This document shows positions 24,060-53,808 of a stretch of DNA of 59,036 nucleotides, one piece after another. The notes under the pieces were generated by a model that was not told the DNA's origin, did no database searches, and saw only the letters and a list, made by a program, of their open reading frames with translations. The DNA comes from Gemmatimonadota bacterium (GTDB lineage Bacteria > Gemmatimonadota > Gemmatimonadetes > Gemmatimonadales > Gemmatimonadaceae). Made by a program: the position numbers and the translations under genes. The stretch is taken from the NCBI GenBank assembly GCA_947461225.1, contig CANHJV010000003.1, positions 1-59,036 of the forward strand, given 5' to 3'. Each line of letters begins with the position of its first letter. The first letter of the stretch is position 1.

Positions 24060-25322
24060 GTGGCTGTCATTCAAACCAACGTGAAAACACGAGACGCGAT
24101 CGGTCTGGCACTGACCCAGATTCGAGTTCAGAAACTCAAGAGCGCCTTCACCCTGCTTGGGGTGACCATTGGCGTCATGTTCCTCATCGCCGTGGTCTCC
24201 ATCGTTGAAGGGATGGGGCGCTACGTCGAAGAAGATTTTGCCGCACGACTGATCGGCAGCAACACCTTTACGCTGCGGCGATTCAGCAATGTCGGCCCCG
24301 GGGGGAATCGCGGCTTTGACGCCCGTTCTGCGCAGCGACGACCGCTGATCAGAATGCCGGACGTCGAGGCCGTTCGTGCGGCGATTCCTGCCACGATGAA
24401 GTCCAGCATCGCGAGCGAGACGTTCAAGTACGCGTCGGCGCCGGGTGCCCGACCGCGCCAAGTGCAGGCCGTCGCCACGGATGCGAACTATTTCGACATC
24501 AAGAATTTCCCGGTCACGGTTGGGCGGGCGTTCACGGATCAGGAAGTTCGCGCCGGCGCGCGTGTGATCGTGATCGGCACGGAAGTCGCCGAACACTTTT
24601 TCCCGGGGCTCAATCCAGAAGGACGGCAGCTGCGTGTCTCGGGCGTCCCGTTCACGGTGATCGGTGTCATCGAGAAGCAGGGATCGGTATTCGGATTCTC
24701 ACTCGACCGGAATGCCATCGCGCCATACACGTCACCCATGGGGCGCATCATCCGCCCGCTTCGCGACGTGTCGTCGCTGATCGTGCAGGTCCCGACCCAA
24801 GCGGATCTGCCCGACGGCATGGAAGCGGCGCGCGGCGCCCTCCGCGCGCTTCGCGGTCTTCGTGCGGGAGAGCCGGACGACTTCGGTCTCATCACGCAGG
24901 ACGCCGCGTTTGGCTTCATCAAGCAACTCAAAGGGCGTCTCGTGCTGTTCGGCACCGCACTGCCCGCCATCAGTCTCGTGGTTGGTGCCATGGTGATCAT
25001 GAACATCATGCTAGTGGCCGTGGCTGAACGCACGCGTGAAATCGGTGTGCGGAAGGCACTTGGCGCCAAGCGTGCGGACATCATGTCGCAGTTCCTCGTT
25101 GAGGCAGCGACACTCAGCACGATCGGCGCCGCCATCGGCATTGGCTTGGGGATCGGACTCGCCGAAATCATCGCCGCCCTCACGCCGCTTCCCGCCGCCG
25201 TGGCACCGTGGTCTATCGCCGCAGCGCTCGTGACCGGAGCGGGCGTCGGGATTGCCGCCGGCCTGTATCCGGCCAGTCGCGCGTCGCGACTGGACCCCAT
25301 CACCGCGCTGCGCCAGGACTGA
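24060..25322 (+). CDS. MacB-type ABC permease, copy 1
   Basis: FtsX-like: VVGAMVIMNIMLVAVAERTREIGVRKALGAKRADIMSQFLVEA. Confidence 0.92.
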   Translation: MAVIQTNVKTRDAIGLALTQIRVQKLKSAFTLLGVTIGVMFLIAVVSIVEGMGRYVEEDFAARLIGSNTFTLRRFSNVGPGGNRGFDARSAQRRPLIRMPDVEAVRAAIPATMKSSIASETFKYASAPGARPRQVQAVATDANYFDIKNFPVTVGRAFTDQEVRAGARVIVIGTEVAEHFFPGLNPEGRQLRVSGVPFTVIGVIEKQGSVFGFSLDRNAIAPYTSPMGRIIRPLRDVSSLIVQVPTQADLPDGMEAARGALRALRGLRAGEPDDFGLITQDAAFGFIKQLKGRLVLFGTALPAISLVVGAMVIMNIMLVAVAERTREIGVRKALGAKRADIMSQFLVEAATLSTIGAAIGIGLGIGLAEIIAALTPLPAAVAPWSIAAALVTGAGVGIAAGLYPASRASRLDPITALRQD

Positions 25323-25326
25323 TCAT

Positions 25327-26583
25327 ATGAATCGATTCTTACTGGTCTTCGAAGGCGTCGGGATGGCACTGGAGTCCATCCGCTCGAACAAAGTGCGCGC
25401 CGCCCTGACCATCGCCGGTGTGGCGATCGGCGTATTCGTCGTCGTCGCCATGGGCGCCGTCGTGAATGGGATCCGCGCCTCGTTCCAGCAGGACCTCGAA
25501 CAAATCGGCGCCACCACCTTCATCGTGCAGCGTCGGAGCTCGGGGATCAGCGGCTGCGATGGCACCGATGAGAAGTGTCCGGATCGTAGCAACCCCCCGA
25601 TTTCGTTTGCCGAGTGGGAGATGATCAAGCGCATCCCCGGCGTGGAGAATGTGATCGGCGTGCTTGGTGGCCAGGGCAACTTCGCGTATCGCAACAGCCG
25701 CGTGGACAACGTGGGCTATGACGCCTACAGCGTGGAATGGCCGTCCGTCGATGCCTCCGACATTTTTCCGGGGCGCAACTTTACGCGGACGGAGTACGAC
25801 GCCGGGCAGCCGGTGGTGCTCGTCAATGACACGCTCAAGGCGCAATTGTTCGGCGACTCGGAAGCGATCGGCAAGCAGATCATGATCAGCGGTCGGCAGT
25901 TCACCGTGATCGGCATCTACGCACCCAAAGCCGGTTTCTTGAAATCGTTGGAGGGGAAAGGCCCTGACACCCCCCGGGCAATCATTCCCATTCAGGCGGC
26001 GGTGCGCACGCTCGATGCGTCGCGCAACAGCCTGAGCCTGATGGTGCGTCCGTCGAAGACGGTGACGCAGGGCGAGGTCATGGACGAGGTGCTGGCGTCC
26101 ATGCGCGCACGCCGTGGCCTCCGTCCCGGCGACCGCGCCACGTTCTATCTGGTCGAGCAGGATCGCTTGATGGACACCTTCAACCAACTGTTCGGCGCCA
26201 TCTTTGCCGTCGGCCTGGCGCTGTCGGCCGTCGCCCTACTCGTGGGCGGTGTGGGTGTCGTGGCGATCATGATGATCTCGGTGACCGAGCGCACGCGCGA
26301 AATCGGCGTCCGCAAGGCCCTCGGTGCCACGTCGGGCACGATTCGCTGGCAGTTCCTGGTTGAAGCCTCGACCATGACCAGCATCGGCGCATTCGTCGGA
26401 CTCGCCCTCGGTGCGCTGCTCGCGTGGGTCATTCGGACGAATACCACGATCCCCGCCACGCTCCCCGGCAGTATCGTGGCAACCGCCCTGATCGCCAGCG
26501 CGGTCACCGGCGTGGCCTTCGGCATGCTCCCCGCCATGCGCGCATCGAGGCTCGATCCGGTGGAGGCGCTCCGGCACGAGTAG
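25327..26583 (+). CDS. MacB-type ABC permease, copy 2
   Basis: ISVTERTREIGVRKALGATSGTIRWQFLVEASTMT. Confidence 0.92.
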   Translation: MNRFLLVFEGVGMALESIRSNKVRAALTIAGVAIGVFVVVAMGAVVNGIRASFQQDLEQIGATTFIVQRRSSGISGCDGTDEKCPDRSNPPISFAEWEMIKRIPGVENVIGVLGGQGNFAYRNSRVDNVGYDAYSVEWPSVDASDIFPGRNFTRTEYDAGQPVVLVNDTLKAQLFGDSEAIGKQIMISGRQFTVIGIYAPKAGFLKSLEGKGPDTPRAIIPIQAAVRTLDASRNSLSLMVRPSKTVTQGEVMDEVLASMRARRGLRPGDRATFYLVEQDRLMDTFNQLFGAIFAVGLALSAVALLVGGVGVVAIMMISVTERTREIGVRKALGATSGTIRWQFLVEASTMTSIGAFVGLALGALLAWVIRTNTTIPATLPGSIVATALIASAVTGVAFGMLPAMRASRLDPVEALRHE

Positions 26584-26592
26584 GACGGCACC

Positions 26593-27837
26593 ATGCGTTT
26601 CTCCGACATCATCCGCCTCTCGCTGGTACAGCTCCGCGTGAACCCCATGAGAACGGCGTTCACGCTGCTGGGGATCGTGGTGTCGGTCGGCTTTCTCGTG
26701 GTGGTCGTGGCGATCATCCAGGGGATGAACGCCTACGTGAAGGAAAACATTGCCGACGCCATGATCGGCATGAACACCTTCCAGGTGCGACGGCTGCCCA
26801 TCAGCCTTGGCCTGTTTACCGACGACCAGTTTCGCCTGCTGCAGCGTCGGCCGCGCGTCGATGAGCGTGATGCCGACGCGGTTCGCGAGGCACTCCCCAA
26901 CGCACAGGCGATCGCGCTGCAAAGCGGCTGGCCCACGCCGCAAGCCGATGTCGTGTGGCGCGACCGCACCCTCGGCAGCGTGCTGATCTTCGGCGTGACG
27001 GCGGGATATCAGGTCGTCCAGGATTATCGGTTCACCGAGGGACGACCGCTAACCGACATCGATGTACGCGAACGGCGCAACGTGATCGTGGTGGGCGCTG
27101 ACGTGGCGCAGAAGCTCTTTCAGGGGGCGTCGGCCATCGACAAAGATGTGCGAGTGATGGGGCAGCGCTACACGATCGTCGGCGTGGTGGCGCGGAAAGG
27201 CCGCGTGTTGGGTCAATCGTTCGACGGCTTTGCCTTGATGCCCATCTCGGCCTTCGAAGCGACCTACGGACGACGTCAGAACACCACGATCTCGATCAAG
27301 ATGCGCGAGGCGGCCGAGGTCGGACCCGCCATGGCCAAGGCGCAGGAAGCCATGCGCCTCGCGCGACGACTGCGACCGTCGGATCGCGACAACTTCGATG
27401 TCGGGACCGCCGAGGCGCTGGTCGATTTCTGGAAGCAGCTCACCAGGGTACTGTTTGCGGTCGTGCCGGCCGTCGTGGCAATTGGCGTGCTCGTGGGGGG
27501 CATCGTGATCATGAACATCATGCTCATGGGCGTCACGGAGCGCACACACGAAATCGGCCTGCGGAAAGCGGTGGGCGCCACGTCGGCGGACGTACGACGT
27601 CAGTTCCTCGCCGAAGCGGTCGCACTGGCCACGTGTGGTGGCCTGCTCGGCGTGGCGGCAGGATGGGGACTGGCCGCGGCCGTGGCCGCGTTCTCTCCCC
27701 TGCCGGCCCGGGTGTCGCTCTGGAGCGTCGCCCTCGCGCTGACGCTTGGCGCGGGGATCGGCGTGCTGTTCGGCGTATATCCCGCCTCGCGCGCAGCCAA
27801 GCTCGATCCGATCACCGCGATGCGCGCGGAGACCTAA
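26593..27837 (+). CDS. MacB-type ABC permease, copy 3
   Basis: GIVIMNIMLMGVTERTHEIGLRKAVGATSADVRRQFLAEAV. Confidence 0.92.
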   Translation: MRFSDIIRLSLVQLRVNPMRTAFTLLGIVVSVGFLVVVVAIIQGMNAYVKENIADAMIGMNTFQVRRLPISLGLFTDDQFRLLQRRPRVDERDADAVREALPNAQAIALQSGWPTPQADVVWRDRTLGSVLIFGVTAGYQVVQDYRFTEGRPLTDIDVRERRNVIVVGADVAQKLFQGASAIDKDVRVMGQRYTIVGVVARKGRVLGQSFDGFALMPISAFEATYGRRQNTTISIKMREAAEVGPAMAKAQEAMRLARRLRPSDRDNFDVGTAEALVDFWKQLTRVLFAVVPAVVAIGVLVGGIVIMNIMLMGVTERTHEIGLRKAVGATSADVRRQFLAEAVALATCGGLLGVAAGWGLAAAVAAFSPLPARVSLWSVALALTLGAGIGVLFGVYPASRAAKLDPITAMRAET

Positions 27838-27840
27838 GTC

Positions 27841-29088
27841 ATGGGACTTCGCGTTGGTTCGTTTGGCGAGAATGTGCTCATCGCCTTCGATGCGATCCGC
27901 GTGAACAAGCTGCGTTCGTCACTCACGATTCTGGGCGTGGTGATCGGCGTCGCGACCGTTATGGCGATGGCGGCAATCGTGGAAGGCATCCGTTCGCAGA
28001 TCGTGACCACCATCGAGGTCGCCGGACCCACCACGTTCTACGTGCTGAAGAAGTTTTCGCAGACGCCGCTCAATCCGGACAATCTGCCCAAGGACGTCCG
28101 CATCCGTCCGGATCTTTCGGAGTCCGAGGCCGAGCGGCTGCGTCGCCTGCCGGAGATCGCCTACGCGTCGCTCTGGGCACAAACACTGGCGCGCATCGAG
28201 TCGGACGGGGTGCGGTCGCAATCCATGGCCATCTTTGGCGCCGACGACGGCTTCACCCGCATTCAAGGGGGCGAGCTGCTGGAAGGACGCTGGTTCACGC
28301 GCAACGAACTCAGTGCGGGCGCGCCCGTGGTAGTCCTGCAGGAGGAAACTGCACGCCGGCTGTTCGGACGGGAGCGGATGCTGGGCCGTCAGGTCCAGGT
28401 GGGCGGGCGACCGCTGATCGTGATTGGTCTCTGGCAGGAACCCGGTAACATCTTCGCGCCACCCGGGCAGGCAGTCGGTGCGGTCGTGCCGTACAAGTTC
28501 ATGGAACGCAGCTACACCATCGACAAAACGAACGCGCTGTGGATCCCCGTGAAGCCGCGCGCGGGCGTCAGTGTCGCGGACGCCCAAGGCGCCGCGGTGA
28601 TGGCCCTGCGCGAGATGCGTGGTCTTCGGCCCGGGAGCAGCAACAGCTTCGACCTCGTCACGCAGGACCAAATTCTCGACACGTTCAACGGGATCACGAG
28701 CGTCTTCTTCCTCGTGATGATCGTGCTGTCCGGCGTCGCCCTCCTGGTGGGCGGCATCGGGGTCATGGCCATTATGACCGTGTCGGTGACAAGCCGCACA
28801 CGAGAAATCGGTGTGCGGAAAGCACTCGGCGCCACTCGCCACGACATTCTGCTGCAATTTCTCATCGAGGCCTGCACACTCACCGGAATCGGCGGGCTGA
28901 TCGGCATTCTCGTGGGCCTCGCCCTCGGCCGAGTCGCGTCGTTTGCGCTCGACATCGCGGCACCGGTACCAGTGTCGCTGACCGCGATCGCGGTGGTGGT
29001 CTCGGTCGGCATCGGGATCATTTTCGGCATGGTACCCGCACGCCGGGCGGCCCGCCTGGACCCGATCGAAGCGCTGCGCTACGAGTGA
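27841..29088 (+). CDS. MacB-type ABC permease, copy 4
   Basis: GVMAIMTVSVTSRTREIGVRKALGATRHDILLQFLIEACTLT. Confidence 0.92.
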   Translation: MGLRVGSFGENVLIAFDAIRVNKLRSSLTILGVVIGVATVMAMAAIVEGIRSQIVTTIEVAGPTTFYVLKKFSQTPLNPDNLPKDVRIRPDLSESEAERLRRLPEIAYASLWAQTLARIESDGVRSQSMAIFGADDGFTRIQGGELLEGRWFTRNELSAGAPVVVLQEETARRLFGRERMLGRQVQVGGRPLIVIGLWQEPGNIFAPPGQAVGAVVPYKFMERSYTIDKTNALWIPVKPRAGVSVADAQGAAVMALREMRGLRPGSSNSFDLVTQDQILDTFNGITSVFFLVMIVLSGVALLVGGIGVMAIMTVSVTSRTREIGVRKALGATRHDILLQFLIEACTLTGIGGLIGILVGLALGRVASFALDIAAPVPVSLTAIAVVVSVGIGIIFGMVPARRAARLDPIEALRYE

Positions 29089-39473: not shown

Positions 39474-40355
39474 TTAGGGCCCCTCGATCCGGGCCAGCAC
39501 CTCGTCGGGATGCTCCTCGGGCAGGAGATGCCCGCCCGGCACGTCAACCAGCGTTGCCGCGGGGAGCCGGCTGGCGGCGCGCCGGAGCGCCGGTAACGGC
39601 ACCCAGCGATCGGCCCGCCCCGCGAGCAGCGTGAGAGGCGTGCGCAGGGTGGCCGCTTCCCGCATCAACGCGGGAAGATCCCAGCGGGACATCATCGACA
39701 GCGCGGCCTGCACGTGGTCGGGCTGCCGGCAGAGCCACTCGTAGCGCGCGCGTTGCGACGCGGTGAGGGGGGACCCCGCGCTCTCGAGCATCCGTCGCAC
39801 GAGCGGCGTGCGCTGCGCGACCCAGGCGCCGCTCGCGGCCACGGCGTCCGACTCCACCACGGCCGCGAGCACCGGCGCGACGAGTTGGACATACCAAGCC
39901 GGCGGGGCCACGAGCGCCGGACAGACGCCGAGCAGATGCTGCGGTGCGATGTCCTCCTGCAGGGTGAGTTGCATGAGGACGGGCATCCCGGCCGAGTGTC
40001 CCACGGCGAACTGGGGGCGCACGTCGAGATGGCGCAGCAGCGCCGCTATGGCCGTCGCCATCTCCCTGAGGGCGAAGGGCTGCCGCGCGCGGGCGTCGCG
40101 GTCGGCCGCCCGCGTAAATCCGTGTCCGGGCAGATCGATGGCGACCACACGGTACCGGCGTGTCAACGAGGCGGTACAGGCCGCCCAGGAGTGCGTGGAT
40201 CCACCGGTGCCATGCAGCAGGAGGACGGTGGGCCCCTCCCCTTGTTGCTGCACGTGCCAACGCACGGCACCCACCGTGTGGAACGAGGAGCAGTCTCGAT
40301 CCGGCCACCCTTCCGGCAGGCGATCGAGCGGCGACGAGGCCGAATTCAAGGCCAT
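39474..40355 (-). CDS. bchO: Alpha/beta hydrolase BchO (Mg-chelatase accessory)
   Basis: VRWHVQQQGEGPTVLLLHGTGGSTHSWAACTASLTRRYRVVAIDLPGHGFT ... VGHSAGMPVLMQL. Confidence 0.85.
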   Translation of the reverse strand: MALNSASSPLDRLPEGWPDRDCSSFHTVGAVRWHVQQQGEGPTVLLLHGTGGSTHSWAACTASLTRRYRVVAIDLPGHGFTRAADRDARARQPFALREMATAIAALLRHLDVRPQFAVGHSAGMPVLMQLTLQEDIAPQHLLGVCPALVAPPAWYVQLVAPVLAAVVESDAVAASGAWVAQRTPLVRRMLESAGSPLTASQRARYEWLCRQPDHVQAALSMMSRWDLPALMREAATLRTPLTLLAGRADRWVPLPALRRAASRLPAATLVDVPGGHLLPEEHPDEVLARIEGP

Positions 40356-40399: not shown

Positions 40400-40443
40400 T
40401 GTAAGTTTTCCTTGACGCTGCGGGGTGTCAGGCACAGTTTACA
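40400..40443. promoter_or_regulatory. Tandem PpsR/CrtJ-type operators in the bchO-pufB intergenic region
   Basis: TGTAAGTTTTCCTTGACG (40400-40417, TGT-N12-ACg), 8-bp gap, TGTCAGGCACAGTTTACA (40426-40443, TGT-N12-ACA). Confidence 0.65.
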
Positions 40444-40539: not shown

Positions 40540-40683
40540 ATGTCGATGTACGAGAAGAGCGGCGGAATGACGGAGGAAGAAGCGATCCGCTTCAACAAGT
40601 ACTGGATCGCGGGCACGGGCGTGTGGGTGATGGGCGCTGTGATGGCGCACCTGTTGGCGTGGTCGTGGCGTCCCTGGTTCTAG
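40540..40683 (+). CDS. pufB: Light-harvesting beta subunit (47 aa)
   Basis: MSMYEKSGGMTEEEAIRFNKYWIAGTGVWVMGAVMAHLLAWSWRPWF; AHLLAWxWRPWF is a beta hallmark; GGAGG RBS. Below the ORF-track size cutoff. Confidence 0.95.
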   Translation: MSMYEKSGGMTEEEAIRFNKYWIAGTGVWVMGAVMAHLLAWSWRPWF

Positions 40684-40727
40684 GCTTCGCCGGACCTTCC
40701 CTCTCAACAGCGCATTAGGAGACCAAT

Positions 40728-40898
40728 ATGTATCGCATTTGGATCGGGCTGGATCCTCACCTGATTATGGGCGGCATCGGCTCGTTCATCGCGGGCGCGG
40801 TGTTGTTCATGCATCTGTTTGCGTTTAGCCAGCTGAACTGGCCGTCGTCACTGAAGGCCACATACGCGAATACGGCCGCACCTGCCGCCACCCGTTAA
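40728..40898 (+). CDS. Light-harvesting alpha-type subunit, first copy (56 aa, divergent)
   Basis: MYRIWIGLDPHLIMGGIGSFIAGAVLFMHLFAFSQLNWPSSLKATYANTAAPAATR; AGGAG RBS; TM with a single His. Not in the ORF track. Confidence 0.9.
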   Translation: MYRIWIGLDPHLIMGGIGSFIAGAVLFMHLFAFSQLNWPSSLKATYANTAAPAATR

Positions 40899-40907
40899 GG
40901 AGCTGTC

Positions 40908-41123
40908 ATGCATCGTATTTGGCTGATGTATGACCCGCGTCGAGTGATGGTTGCCGTCGCCGGCTTTGTAGGCGCACTCGCGTTTGTCATTCATTTCATC
41001 CTGCTCAGTTCGCAGCGGTACTCGTGGATTGAGAACGGGACGCTGTCCGCCGTGCAGGCACCCGTTGGCGCTTCGGCTCCGGCGATGGCGGCAGAGATGT
41101 CGCCGCTCCCGCCCGGCCGGTAA
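40908..41123 (+). CDS. pufA: Light-harvesting LH1 alpha subunit, second copy (71 aa, canonical LH1-like)
   Basis: MHRIWLMYDPRRVMVAVAGFVGALAFVIHFILLSSQRYSWIENG...; DPRR and HFILLSxxRxxW match LH1 alpha; AAGGAG RBS. Confidence 0.93.
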   Translation: MHRIWLMYDPRRVMVAVAGFVGALAFVIHFILLSSQRYSWIENGTLSAVQAPVGASAPAMAAEMSPLPPGR

Positions 41124-41139
41124 TTCTTCGCGCGTCCAC

Positions 41140-41184
41140 GCCGGAGTGGCGATTCGCACGTGTCGGTGCGAAGCCATCTCCGGC
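41140..41184 (+). other. Intercistronic stem-loop between the LH alpha gene and pufL
   Basis: GCCGGAG-TGGC-ga-TTCGCAC / GTGCGAA-GCCA-t-CTCCGGC, 18 paired positions with two small bulges. Confidence 0.65.
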
Positions 41185-41228
41185 CGACGCCAGCCTTGGC
41201 CCTCGACGCTCGCTTGGAGAAATCGCCC

Positions 41229-42053
41229 ATGGCGATGCTCAGTTTTGAGAAGAAGTACCGTGTACGCGGCGGAACGCTGATCGGCGGAGATCTGTTCGAT
41301 TTCTGGTTCGGTCCGTTTTACGTAGGGTTTTTCGGCGTCTCGGCCATCTTCTTTATTGTCCTTGGCACGGTGCTTTGTGTCTGGGGCGCAGCCATGGGTC
41401 CGACGTGGAACCTCTGGCAAATCTCTATTGCACCGCCTGACCTGAAGTATGGTCTGGGCTTCGCTCCGCTCCGCGAAGGCGGACTCTGGCAGATCATCAC
41501 GATTTGTGCGATTGGTGCGTTCGGCAGCTGGGCGCTCCGACAGGCCGAGATCAGCCGGAAGCTGGGCATGGGCATGCACATCCCCTTTGCTTACGGCGCG
41601 GCCGTGCTCGCGTACGTGACCTTGGTGGTGATTCGGCCGGTGTTGCTCGGCGCCTGGGGACACGGCTTCCCGTACGGCATCTTCTCCCATCTCGATTGGG
41701 TGTCGAACGTCGGGTATCAGTACCTGCACTTCCACTACAATCCGGCGCACATGATCGCCGTGACGTTCTTCTTCACGAACTGCCTCGCCTTGGCGATGCA
41801 TGGGTCACTGATTCTGTCAGTGACGAATCCGAAGAAGGGCACGCCGGTTGGCACGAGCGAAACGGAAAACGTGTTCTTCCGCGATCTCCTGGGCTACTCG
41901 ATCGGCGCGATTGGTATTCATCGGCTTGGGATGTTTTTGGCCATGGGCGCGGCGATTTGGAGCGCGATCTGTATCGTGATCTCGGGCCCCTTCTGGTCGT
42001 CAGGGTGGCCGGAGTGGTGGGGCTGGTGGCTTAATCTTCCGATTTGGCGCTGA
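41229..42053 (+). CDS. pufL: Photosynthetic reaction centre subunit L
   Basis: [68 protein letters not shown]. Confidence 0.98.
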
Positions 42054-42067
42054 GGAGAATCGACCTG

Positions 42068-43237
42068 ATGCTTGAGTACCAGAATCTCTTCACGCGCGTC
42101 CAAGTCCGCACCGTCCCCGAGGCGGGCATCCCGATCGAGGATTCGCCGGGCGGACGCTTGGGCACCGGCACCTTCTCGTATCTCGCCGGTAAGCTCGGCG
42201 ATGCGCAGATCGGCCCGATCTATCTTGGAACCGCGGGCACGTTCTCCCTGCTCTTCGGATTCCTCGCCTTCGAGATCATCGGCCTCAACATGTGGGCCTC
42301 CGTGGGCTGGGATCCGGTCGAATTCATTCGACAGCTGCCGTGGCTGGCGCTCGAACCGCCGCCACCACAGTACGGGCTGCATCTTCCGCCACTGCAACAA
42401 GGTGGCTGGTATCTGATGGCCGGGTTCTTCCTCACGGTCAGCATTCTGCTCTGGTGGCTGCGCGTGTACCGTCGGGCCACGGCGTTGAACATGGGCACGC
42501 ATCTGCCCTGGGCATTCGGCTCGGCGATCTTCCTGTACTCCACGTTCTTCTTCCAGCCGCTGCTGGTGGGCAGCTGGAGTGAGATGGTGCCCTTCGGCAT
42601 CTTCCCGCACCTCGATTGGACGTCGGCCTTTTCGATTCGCTACGGGAACCTGTACTACAATCCGTTCCACGCGCTCTCGATCGTGTTCTTGTACGGCAGC
42701 GCGGTGCTGTTCGCCATGCACGGCGCGACGATTCTGGCCGTAGCCCGTCTCGGCGGTGAACGCGAGATCGAGCAGATCACCGATCGTGGTACGGCGGCCG
42801 AACGCTCCATGCTCTTCTGGCGCTGGACGATGGGTTTCAACGCGACGATGGAGTCGATCCATCGGTGGTCCTGGTGGTTCGCCGTGCTCACCACGTTTAC
42901 CGGCGGTATCGGTATCCTGCTCACGGGCACCGTGGTGGACAACTGGTATCTCTGGGGTGTCAAACACGGTTTGGTCTCGCCCTATCCGGCGCAGAACAAC
43001 CTCACGGCCGAACAGCAGGAACTGCTGCGTGGCCGGTATCAAGGAACCGCCCCGGACTCATTCCCCACGTACGTGGCGCCGCAACCTGCGATGATGCTCG
43101 ACTCGACGGCCCTGATGACGCCAGCAGATTCGCTGACGGCAGACTCGACCCGAGTCGACTCCCTCGCGACGCCGGCAGCAGCCGGTCCCGCTACCGCAAA
43201 GCCGACCGCCGCCCCTGCTGGAGGAAAGTCACCGTGA
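42068..43237 (+). CDS. pufM: Photosynthetic reaction centre subunit M with C-terminal low-complexity extension
   Basis: [85 protein letters not shown]. Confidence 0.98.
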
Positions 43238-44358
43238 GTTTCCTGACACCCACGTGCCGCCGCCTCGTCGCGGCGGCCATCCCCTTGGCGATGTTGTCGT
43301 TGGGGGGGTGTGGCGATGCACGAACGGACTCGGTTCAAGTCGGGTACCGTGGAACGGCGATGGAGCAGAATTACGACCATGGCGATCTGAAGGCGAAGTT
43401 CGCGCAGGTGAAGATCCCCACGCCGCTCCCCCCAGCGGGTGCGTCACCGCCGGGTCCACTCCCCTGGCAGAACGTACAGGTGCTGAACGACATCTCGGTC
43501 GGTGAATTCAACCGCACGATGGTGGCGATGAGCACCTGGGTGGCCGGCACCGGCAACTGCGCCTACTGTCACAACATCGCCAATCTCGCGTCCGACACGC
43601 TACCGAACGGCAAACCGCTGTACACGAAGCTCGTGGCCCGTCGCATGCTGCAGATGACCCGCCAGATCAACGGCCAGTACTCGCAGCACGTGAAGAACAC
43701 CGGCGTCACCTGCTACACCTGTCACATGGGCAAGCCGCTGCCGAATGGCCTCTGGTTCTACTCCAACCAGACCGACTATCTCCGGCACTATCTCGATCGC
43801 GACGGAGCTCGGGTCGTCACGCAGCAGATGTCGCCGACGAACATGAACCGAAGCTCGGTGAAGCAGACGGAGTGGACGTATTCGCTGATGATGTCCCAGT
43901 CCCGGTCGTTGGGCGTCAACTGCACCTATTGCCACAACAGCCGTCAGTTCGCCAGTTGGAAGGAAGCGCCGCCGGCGCGCGTGACCGCGTATCATGGCAT
44001 TCTCATGTTGCGCGACGTGAATCAGAACTACCTGTCGCCGCTGCAGCCGGTGTACCCCGCGGTGCGCTTGGGCGCTCAGGGCGATGCCCCGAAGGCCCAG
44101 TGTGTAACCTGCCACAACGGGGCCTACAAGCCGCTGTATGGCGCGCAGATGGTGAAGCACTATCCGGCCCTTTGGGGTCGGTCGGATTGGAACGGTGTGC
44201 CCTTCCAAGGGCTGGGGACACCAGCCGTTGCACCGACGGCAACCGACAGCACGGCGAAGCCCGCGATGCCGGTGCCACCGCAGGTGAAGGCCACCAGCAG
44301 TGCCGCCCCGTCGACGGGAGCCGCGACGGTGGGTGCTGGCAACGTGAATCGGCAGTAG
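43234..44358 (+). CDS. pufC: Reaction-centre tetrahaem cytochrome c subunit, lipoprotein
   Basis: Lipobox LSLGGCGD; four CxxCH (CAYCH, CYTCH, CTYCH, CVTCH); GTGA overlap with pufM. Confidence 0.96.
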
Positions 44359-52400: not shown

Positions 52401-53069
52401 TCATGCCACGACCGGTTGTGCGGCCGTAATCGTTTCAGCGGGGGCAGTGCCCCGCTCTCCCGTCCGCTCGATGCGAACGTTCTGCTCAGCGACCGCGGCG
52501 ATGGCGTTCACGAGCAACGCGCTGACCGCCTTGGGATCCAGCAACGCGCGGAGTACCGGTTCCGGATGCGTGAATCGAAACACCTGACAGTGCGGCCACA
52601 GCGCGATGTATGCGAGTCGATGCGCCTTCCCGAGGGTGAGCACCAGCTGACCGGTCCCGTCACTGAAGGTACCGATTCGTGCGCCATCGATAATCGAGAA
52701 CGGAATATTGATGGACATCGGGAACACCACACCGAGACGCATCACGATGCGCCGATTCGTGATGGCGTACCACGAGGTCCGAGCCGACGCTCTGGCGAGC
52801 ACTTCCGCGATCGCCAACACGATGAGCGTCAACGCCAGCCGGATGCCGAAGCCGACGGCGAACGCCCGACTCAGCACCGGCTCCACCGTCGCGATTCCCC
52901 ACCACGCCAGCATGGCCGTGAAATACATCGCCACCAACCGGCGATGGAAGACGTGCGTCGCGAGTGCGCGCGCATCGGGAGCCGCCTCCCACAGCACGTG
53001 CTCGCCGGCGGGAAGCGGATGGGGGACTCCCTTGATGTACTCGGCGTTCCCCACCTCGTTGCGGCTCAT
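52401..53069 (-). CDS. puhB: Photosynthetic complex assembly protein PuhB
   Basis: VPHPLPAGEHVLWEAAPDARALATHVFHRRLVAMYF; TNRRIVMRLGVVFPMSINIPFSII. Confidence 0.9.
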   Translation of the reverse strand: MSRNEVGNAEYIKGVPHPLPAGEHVLWEAAPDARALATHVFHRRLVAMYFTAMLAWWGIATVEPVLSRAFAVGFGIRLALTLIVLAIAEVLARASARTSWYAITNRRIVMRLGVVFPMSINIPFSIIDGARIGTFSDGTGQLVLTLGKAHRLAYIALWPHCQVFRFTHPEPVLRALLDPKAVSALLVNAIAAVAEQNVRIERTGERGTAPAETITAAQPVVA

Positions 53070-53608
53070 ATGATCGGCTCGCTCCGGTCGGCCGTCGCGT
53101 ACAGATGCCCACCGGCGAAGTACGCCATGATCTTGTCCTCTTCCAGCAACGTGATCTGGTCGTCGCGACGGATCGCTGGCACATTGGCGAACTGCGCCGC
53201 GGTGATCGACTTCACGAGCAGACGGTCATTGCCCCACAGCCCGAAATTCGGCCACTGCACGAAGCCGGCGGGCAGCATGATGCGTCGTTCCGTGCCCGAG
53301 AGCTGAACCTCGTAGTACCGAACCTGCGGTTCGGCGCGATCGACCCACAGTTCGATCACGGTTCCAGCGGTCACCTTGTCCACAGCTTCGACCGGCAACC
53401 CACGCGGATCGGGATCGCCCTTGGCGACGGAGAACGTGGGATCGAGACGCATCGGCACAATCTTCGGCGTGCCATGGAACGTGCGATCGGGCTCATCGGC
53501 ACGATCCGCCCACGCGGCCGGGCCAACCCCATCGATCATCGGGTTTCCGGTAGGAACCAGCGGCGACCCATTGAAGCCGTCAGCCGGCACCGCTTTGATG
53601 TCGGACAT
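53066..53608 (-). CDS. puhA: Reaction centre H subunit, cytoplasmic domain only (split PuhA, C-part)
   Basis: GNPMIDGVGPAAWADRADEPD...GLPVEAVDKVTAGTVIELWVDRAEPQVRYYEVQL...VTLLEEDKIMAYFAGGHLYA-like PuhA C-domain; TGATG overlap with the upstream ORF. Confidence 0.93.
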   Translation of the reverse strand: MSDIKAVPADGFNGSPLVPTGNPMIDGVGPAAWADRADEPDRTFHGTPKIVPMRLDPTFSVAKGDPDPRGLPVEAVDKVTAGTVIELWVDRAEPQVRYYEVQLSGTERRIMLPAGFVQWPNFGLWGNDRLLVKSITAAQFANVPAIRRDDQITLLEEDKIMAYFAGGHLYATADRSEPII

Positions 53609-53808
53609 CAGTGCGTCTCCTCGCCGCTGTGCGGCCGATGAATGAAGGTCTTCGGGCCGGCCGACTTGGGCCACCCATCACGCGGACCCTGCGGTGATTC
53701 GAGGGGATAGCCTTCCCGCTTGTCTTCGCGTCGAATGTAGATGATCAGCCCTGCGAAAAATATCCAGAACGCATACAGGGCGATCTGAGCTCCGTCGATG
53801 TACTGCAT
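53608..53808 (-). CDS. puhA: Reaction centre H subunit, transmembrane segment only (split PuhA, N-part, 66 aa)
   Basis: [66 protein letters not shown] matches the PuhA N-terminus. Confidence 0.92.

Follow-up and report, generated by a model that had tools for sequence, protein, structure and literature searches.

In a stretch of 59,036 nucleotides from a Gemmatimonadota genome (hereafter the window), one LH beta gene is followed by two dissimilar LH alpha genes. This arrangement raises the question of which antenna the three polypeptides build and at which wavelengths it would absorb. The first-pass annotation had proposed two antenna rings that perhaps draw on the single local beta. That double-ring inference is correct and was already in print; the colour rule attached to it is not sustained.

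The genome from which the window comes (as contig 3) is 88.7% complete and congeneric with genomes G039 and G074. The PufA2 sequences of these two are letter-identical to the LHh chains of Gemmatimonas phototrophica and G. groenlandica, respectively. The nearest relatives of the window are uncultured freshwater MAGs.

Antenna genes and operon layout

The photosynthesis features of the window are as follows, with coordinates counted from its first nucleotide.

40426..40443, plus strand: weak palindrome TGT-N12-ACA of the PpsR/CrtJ type, 97 bp 5' of pufB
40540..40683, plus strand: pufB, LH beta, 47 aa (PDB, Pfam LHC)
40728..40898, plus strand: pufA2 (alpha-1), predicted outer-ring LHh alpha, 56 aa; Gly15, His29, Phe31, Phe33, Trp38
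40788..40877, plus strand: pufA2 segment that recombination has apparently exchanged in G362 (= L009), the relative closest to the window; includes residues 29, 31, 33, 36 and 38
40908..41123, plus strand: pufA1 (alpha-2), predicted inner-ring LH1 alpha, 71 aa; His29, Trp40 (+11)
41132..41190, plus strand: conserved RNA hairpin in the pufA1-pufL spacer, without a T-run (z=-5.1; covariation)
41229..42053, plus strand: pufL (TIGR01157, 419 bits)
42068..43237, plus strand: pufM (TIGR01115, 514 bits)
43360..44358, plus strand: pufC, tetraheme cytochrome subunit (NF040706, 329 bits)
53066..53608, minus strand: puhA2, cytoplasmic part (Hc) of a split RC-H, overlapping puhA1 by 1 base (9h22_K, 4.5e-100)
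53608..53808, minus strand: puhA1, transmembrane part (Ht) of the split RC-H (7o0u_H1, 1.5e-33)

The tandem of pufB (47 aa), alpha-1 (56 aa) and alpha-2 (71 aa) in 40540-41123 was recovered as originally annotated. Each gene follows a Shine-Dalgarno-like sequence (GGAGG, AGGAG and AAGGAG, respectively), and the Trp offsets from His29 (+9 in alpha-1, +11 in alpha-2) were likewise confirmed. The beta polypeptide carries His37 with Trp at +4, +6 and +9. Best PDB matches are Gemmatimonas photosystems, and E-values of 8e-14 (beta), 8e-20 (alpha-1) and 6e-38 (alpha-2) indicate that these matches are not due to chance. Against Pfam LHC, beta and alpha-2 score above the cut-off and alpha-1 slightly below it (19.6 vs 23 bits). 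All three genes are under purifying selection relative to their relatives, with dN/dS mostly 0.02-0.2.

The bchC-X-Y-Z genes lie 5' of the puf genes, and pufL, pufM and pufC lie 3' of the antenna genes. On the opposite strand, bchO (39474-40355, minus) sits between bchZ and pufB and splits the bchCXYZ-puf superoperon. RC-H is divided into Ht and Hc, as in G. phototrophica and G. groenlandica. PDB comparison of the cluster ORFs, including two hypothetical ones, returned RC-H chains only; the genes for the linker subunits RC-S and RC-U may be located elsewhere. Beside the photosynthesis cluster, positions 24177-29088 (plus) hold a tandem of four MacB/FtsX-like ABC permease genes of ~400 aa each. 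Upstream of pufB, only the position of the PpsR/CrtJ-type palindrome is suggestive, the motif being as frequent in the window as chance predicts (7 vs 6.7 expected). A sigma-70-like promoter was looked for and none was found.

The pufA1-pufL spacer forms a hairpin of ~-40 kcal/mol (z=-5.1 vs shuffles). Seven of its pairs show two-sided compensatory changes over 13 distinct sequences, vs 1.9 in shuffles, and sliding controls score much lower. A terminator scan did not flag this hairpin, and its lack of a T-run leads us to read it as a stabiliser rather than a terminator. In Rhodobacter, the hairpin between pufBA and pufLM keeps antenna mRNA in excess over RC mRNA. By analogy, the spacer hairpin of the window probably protects antenna mRNA, which would help to supply some 40 alpha-beta pairs per RC. 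In addition, coupled translation of both alphas is suggested by the overlap of the pufA1 Shine-Dalgarno sequence with the stop codon of pufA2.

A probable double ring with a common beta

A two-ring complex was proposed in 2017 (PMC5749889). The Gemmatimonas RC-dLH has been solved in two species, with 24 outer and 16 inner units, a common beta and PufA2 as the outer-ring alpha (PMC12817894); the shared beta is also stated in a review (PMC10214105). PDB chain counts agree: each complex has 24 alpha chains of LHh, 16 of LH1 and 40 beta chains (48, 32 and 80 chains over the two entries 9h19 and 9h22). The RC-dLH of G. phototrophica AP64 (PDB 7o0u-7o0x) has the same gene set, gene order and split RC-H as the window, and that of G. 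groenlandica TET16 (PDB 9h19, 9h22) has the same architecture and gene order.

Alpha-2 is ~90% identical to the LH1 alpha of 7o0u (AP64) and 9h19, in line with its earlier assignment to the inner ring. The assignment of alpha-1 to the outer ring is borne out by PDB matches to the LHh chains of the solved Gemmatimonas complexes, at 63% identity for G. phototrophica AP64 and only 46% for G. groenlandica TET16. The former value rules out that the window is G. phototrophica itself. A single beta common to both rings, also part of the original proposal, had already been seen by cryo-EM in two relatives. By homology, a concentric double ring with a common beta is thus very probable in the source organism. 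The three genes would be the antenna part of a Gemmatimonas-type RC-dLH photosystem, in which PufB and PufA1 would form an inner 16-unit LH1 ring absorbing at ~868 nm, and PufB and PufA2 an outer 24-unit LHh ring. Energy would flow one way, from the outer to the inner ring and on to the RC.

The first-pass annotation had pointed to extra antenna beta genes or a separate outer-ring operon as the features that would bear on sharing. Neither these nor separate LH2/puc genes were found in the window's genome (88.7% complete) or in the 23 phototrophic genomes of the genus; two single-contig relatives agree. Each of these 23 genomes holds exactly one beta and two alphas, and their extra LHC matches fall far under the cut-off and within long frames. 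For a broader view, puf operons were gathered at three levels, covering 400 sampled genomes of the phylum, 181 of the family and 30 of the genus, and 51 loci were read. Among them, two-alpha operons are confined to the window's family, and a single alpha is the rule in the remaining Gemmatimonadota lineages. Every two-alpha locus keeps the order beta, LHh alpha, LH1 alpha, pufL, pufM, and an extra beta-alpha pair ahead of it occurs in G424 only.

Co-variation among the subunits provides supporting evidence for the shared beta. Distance correlations were computed over 34 two-alpha genomes, partial on the RC and the other alpha, with 2000 permutations. Partial r was 0.57 between beta and outer alpha and 0.58 between beta and inner alpha, each exceeding all permutations (0/2000 as high), although partial Mantel-type tests inflate significance among related sequences. 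The partial correlation between PufA1 and PufA2 was -0.01. Since the alphas are uncorrelated though their genes lie 9 bp apart, linkage is disfavoured as the cause. The pattern persists after dereplication and inside the genus; in other genera (11 genomes) the beta-PufA2 correlation holds and the beta-PufA1 partial correlation vanishes. A beta that co-varies with each alpha, the alphas not doing so with each other, would be expected if one beta serves two rings.

Several loci depart from the common layout. In G424 (Gemmatimonadaceae MAG Prado131), two contigs ~80% identical to each other (L093:3107-4172, on the same contig as L024, and L094:39-1070) both carry a beta-alpha-beta-alpha-alpha block before pufL; its two betas are distinct, and its three alphas comprise two of LHh type (Phe31/Phe33/Tyr38) and an LH1 alpha. 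Such a block could add a third ring, give outer rings of two kinds or supply a beta reserved for the outer ring, and the MAG may mix two species. At L119 (G247:C1:288800-292400), a second LH1-like alpha (~290433-290591; 52.6 bits, above the LHC cut-off) lies inside a 225-aa frame; the puf operon of G247, which has a single alpha, is ~1.9 Mb away. A contig named 'Candidatus Kuenenia stuttgartiensis' (L017) bears a Gemmatimonas puf operon and is probably a misnamed bin. Finally, beta ends at RPWF or RPWL in all two-alpha operons and extends C-terminally past the RPW motif in several single-alpha lineages (L088, L102, L089-L091); fitting between two rings may require a short beta.

Predicted colour of the outer ring

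The first-pass annotation had linked colour to the Trp offset, with +11 marking the red-shifted ring and +9 the bluer one. Trp38 (+9) is present in both blue (816 nm) and red (860 nm) outer rings, and therefore cannot be the colour switch. The +9 vs +11 rule was rejected in favour of the published determinant, residue 31 (His+2), which is Phe in the window. In the outer alpha, Trp31 is hydrogen-bonded in G. groenlandica (outer ring ~860 nm) and unbonded in G. phototrophica (816 nm), and Ser15 makes the sole hydrogen bond to B800 (PMC12817894). According to the same study, the 816-to-860 nm shift is not wholly accounted for by hydrogen bonds and excitonic coupling alone (PMC12817894).

In an alignment with both solved LHh chains, the outer alpha of the window carries Gly15, Ser19, His29, Phe31, Phe33, Gln35 and Trp38. 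Ser19, Gln35 and Trp38 are common to G. phototrophica AP64, which differs in having Ser15 and Trp31/Tyr33; G. groenlandica TET16 has its hydrogen-bonded Trp31 and SITGW at 34-38. His29, which binds the paired pigment, is invariant among two-alpha loci. The Trp31 of both solved members is missing, and residues 15 and 31, the two positions for which bonding to pigment has been published, are occupied by amino acids whose side chains cannot serve as hydrogen-bond donors. Because both donors are absent, the outer ring is predicted to be blue and its B800 weak or absent. Phe would substitute for the sole residue reported to hydrogen-bond and redden the outer-ring bacteriochlorophyll, and a second Phe for Tyr33, the companion of Trp31 in both solved species, fixing the ring in its blue state. 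B800 would be weaker or absent, its sole hydrogen-bond donor, Ser15, being Gly.

The predicted near-infrared spectrum has two bands, one at about 810-820 nm and the other at about 868 nm, and the 800 nm shoulder would be slight or missing. Since Trp31 is already unbonded in G. phototrophica, the window is expected to resemble that species except for the 800 nm shoulder, which it would lack; G. groenlandica TET16, like the window, is expected to have no B800 or a weaker one. On present evidence, we favour an outer ring locked in the blue with weak or absent B800, with the step from Phe31 to colour drawn from one published structure pair. Loss of a Trp31 that is unbonded in G. phototrophica may nonetheless matter little, and hydrophobic contacts also hold B800, so Gly15 may leave it in place. 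As a whole, the arrangement of a double ring, a common beta and a locked-blue outer ring is judged likely from the sequences.

A precedent for such tuning exists in purple bacteria. There, the peripheral ring is blue-shifted in LH3 relative to LH2 (B800-820 vs B800-850) by loss of aromatic hydrogen-bond donors to the paired bacteriochlorophylls, located at His+13/+14. The window resembles this pair in the predicted blue shift of a peripheral ring through aromatic-donor loss. In contrast, LH2 and LH3 are separate rings with their own beta and pucBA genes, whereas the window would form a concentric ring with the LH1 beta in common and the site at His+2/+4.

Among rival readings, a double ring whose outer ring is red, with a single band at ~860 nm maintained by another donor (Trp38 or a beta Trp) or by tighter packing, is improbable. 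Residue 38 is always aromatic (Trp or Tyr) across two-alpha loci, and models account for the 860 nm shift only in part, but G. phototrophica has the same Trp38 with an 816 nm outer ring, and SQLNW at 34-38 of the window resembles the blue GQFNW rather than the red SITGW.

Less plausible still is a vestigial or unassembled outer ring, in which the LH1 ring alone is made. While PufA2 is the most variable antenna subunit of the genus (mean identity 67% vs 89% for PufA1), strong purifying selection on pufA2 (dN/dS 0.02-0.3), invariant His29, Ala32 and Pro39, retention of the Shine-Dalgarno sequence and gene order, and co-variation with beta all argue against this reading. A single heterogeneous LH1 ring containing both alphas, comparable to the ring with multiple alphas of Alc. 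tepidum, is the reading we credit least: in the two solved species the orthologues strictly segregate, one to the inner ring and the other to the outer, even though heterogeneous LH1 rings with several alphas are known (PMC11764377). The double ring with a locked-blue outer ring is retained as the preferred reading.

Switching at residue 31 and probable exchange of a pufA2 segment

The 37 two-alpha loci encode either Trp or Phe at residue 31 and either Tyr or Phe at residue 33; Phe31 is invariably paired with Phe33 and never with Tyr33. Phe also occurs in about half of the other two-alpha loci, which makes residue 31 a variable, non-defining site. On the PufL+PufM tree, the Phe31/Phe33 state requires at least 6 changes, whichever their direction (bootstrap range 6-7; well-supported branches alone force 6); residue 31 is therefore a repeatedly switched site. 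The PufA2 protein itself is too short for its tree to be resolved. Pseudogemmatithrix spongiicola, which is in culture, is probably also a Phe31 species; its PufA2 is aligned in PMC12817894, where the text is silent on its residue 31, and no absorption spectrum was found in the species description. In another genus, L084 (G245) has a G. groenlandica-like outer alpha (LWAYSITGWPK), and its puf-tree sisters G186 and G414 are of the Phe31/Tyr38 type; another transfer of a pufA2 type is possible there.

By PufL+PufM, no relative is closer to the window than G362 (99% identical), which belongs to the Phe31 clade (99/99 support) but whose PufA2 carries Trp31/Tyr33. The window and G362 show 68 differences over pufB-pufL (1514 bp), and 17 of these lie within a single 90-bp stretch (40788-40877), a clustering matched by 0/5000 shuffles; nothing comparable appears in other close pairs without L009. 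Identity is 80% inside this tract and 96.4% outside, and synonymous divergence reaches 0.41 in pufA2 vs 0.06 in pufA1, 0.16 in pufB and 0.20 in pufL. No donor was found among the sampled genomes (best 84-85%). With one MAG as support, the simplest reading is that the pigment-binding end of the outer alpha underwent allelic replacement in G362. More speculatively, freshwater Gemmatimonas populations might retune the outer antenna by homologous recombination of a pufA2 cassette of ~85-90 bp (residues ~22-50) between a hydrogen-bond-capable Trp31/Tyr33 and a locked-blue Phe31/Phe33 form, which would replace absent light regulation.

An outer alpha without these donors, the repeated switching at its residue 31, the apparent replacement of the cassette and the co-variation of beta with each alpha go undiscussed in the published accounts consulted, such as PMC12817894. 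For the ~45 nm gap between two near-identical Gemmatimonas complexes, the published account rests on one Trp rotamer, which is explained neither by neighbouring residues nor by AlphaFold 3. Nature has removed Trp31 many times, in the window among others, and a Phe31 strain constitutes a natural test of the rotamer model. The window and G362 form an almost isogenic pair (PufL+PufM 99% identical) that differs mainly at the pufA2 tract. If the rotamer model is true, a Phe31 strain must be two-banded and never red.
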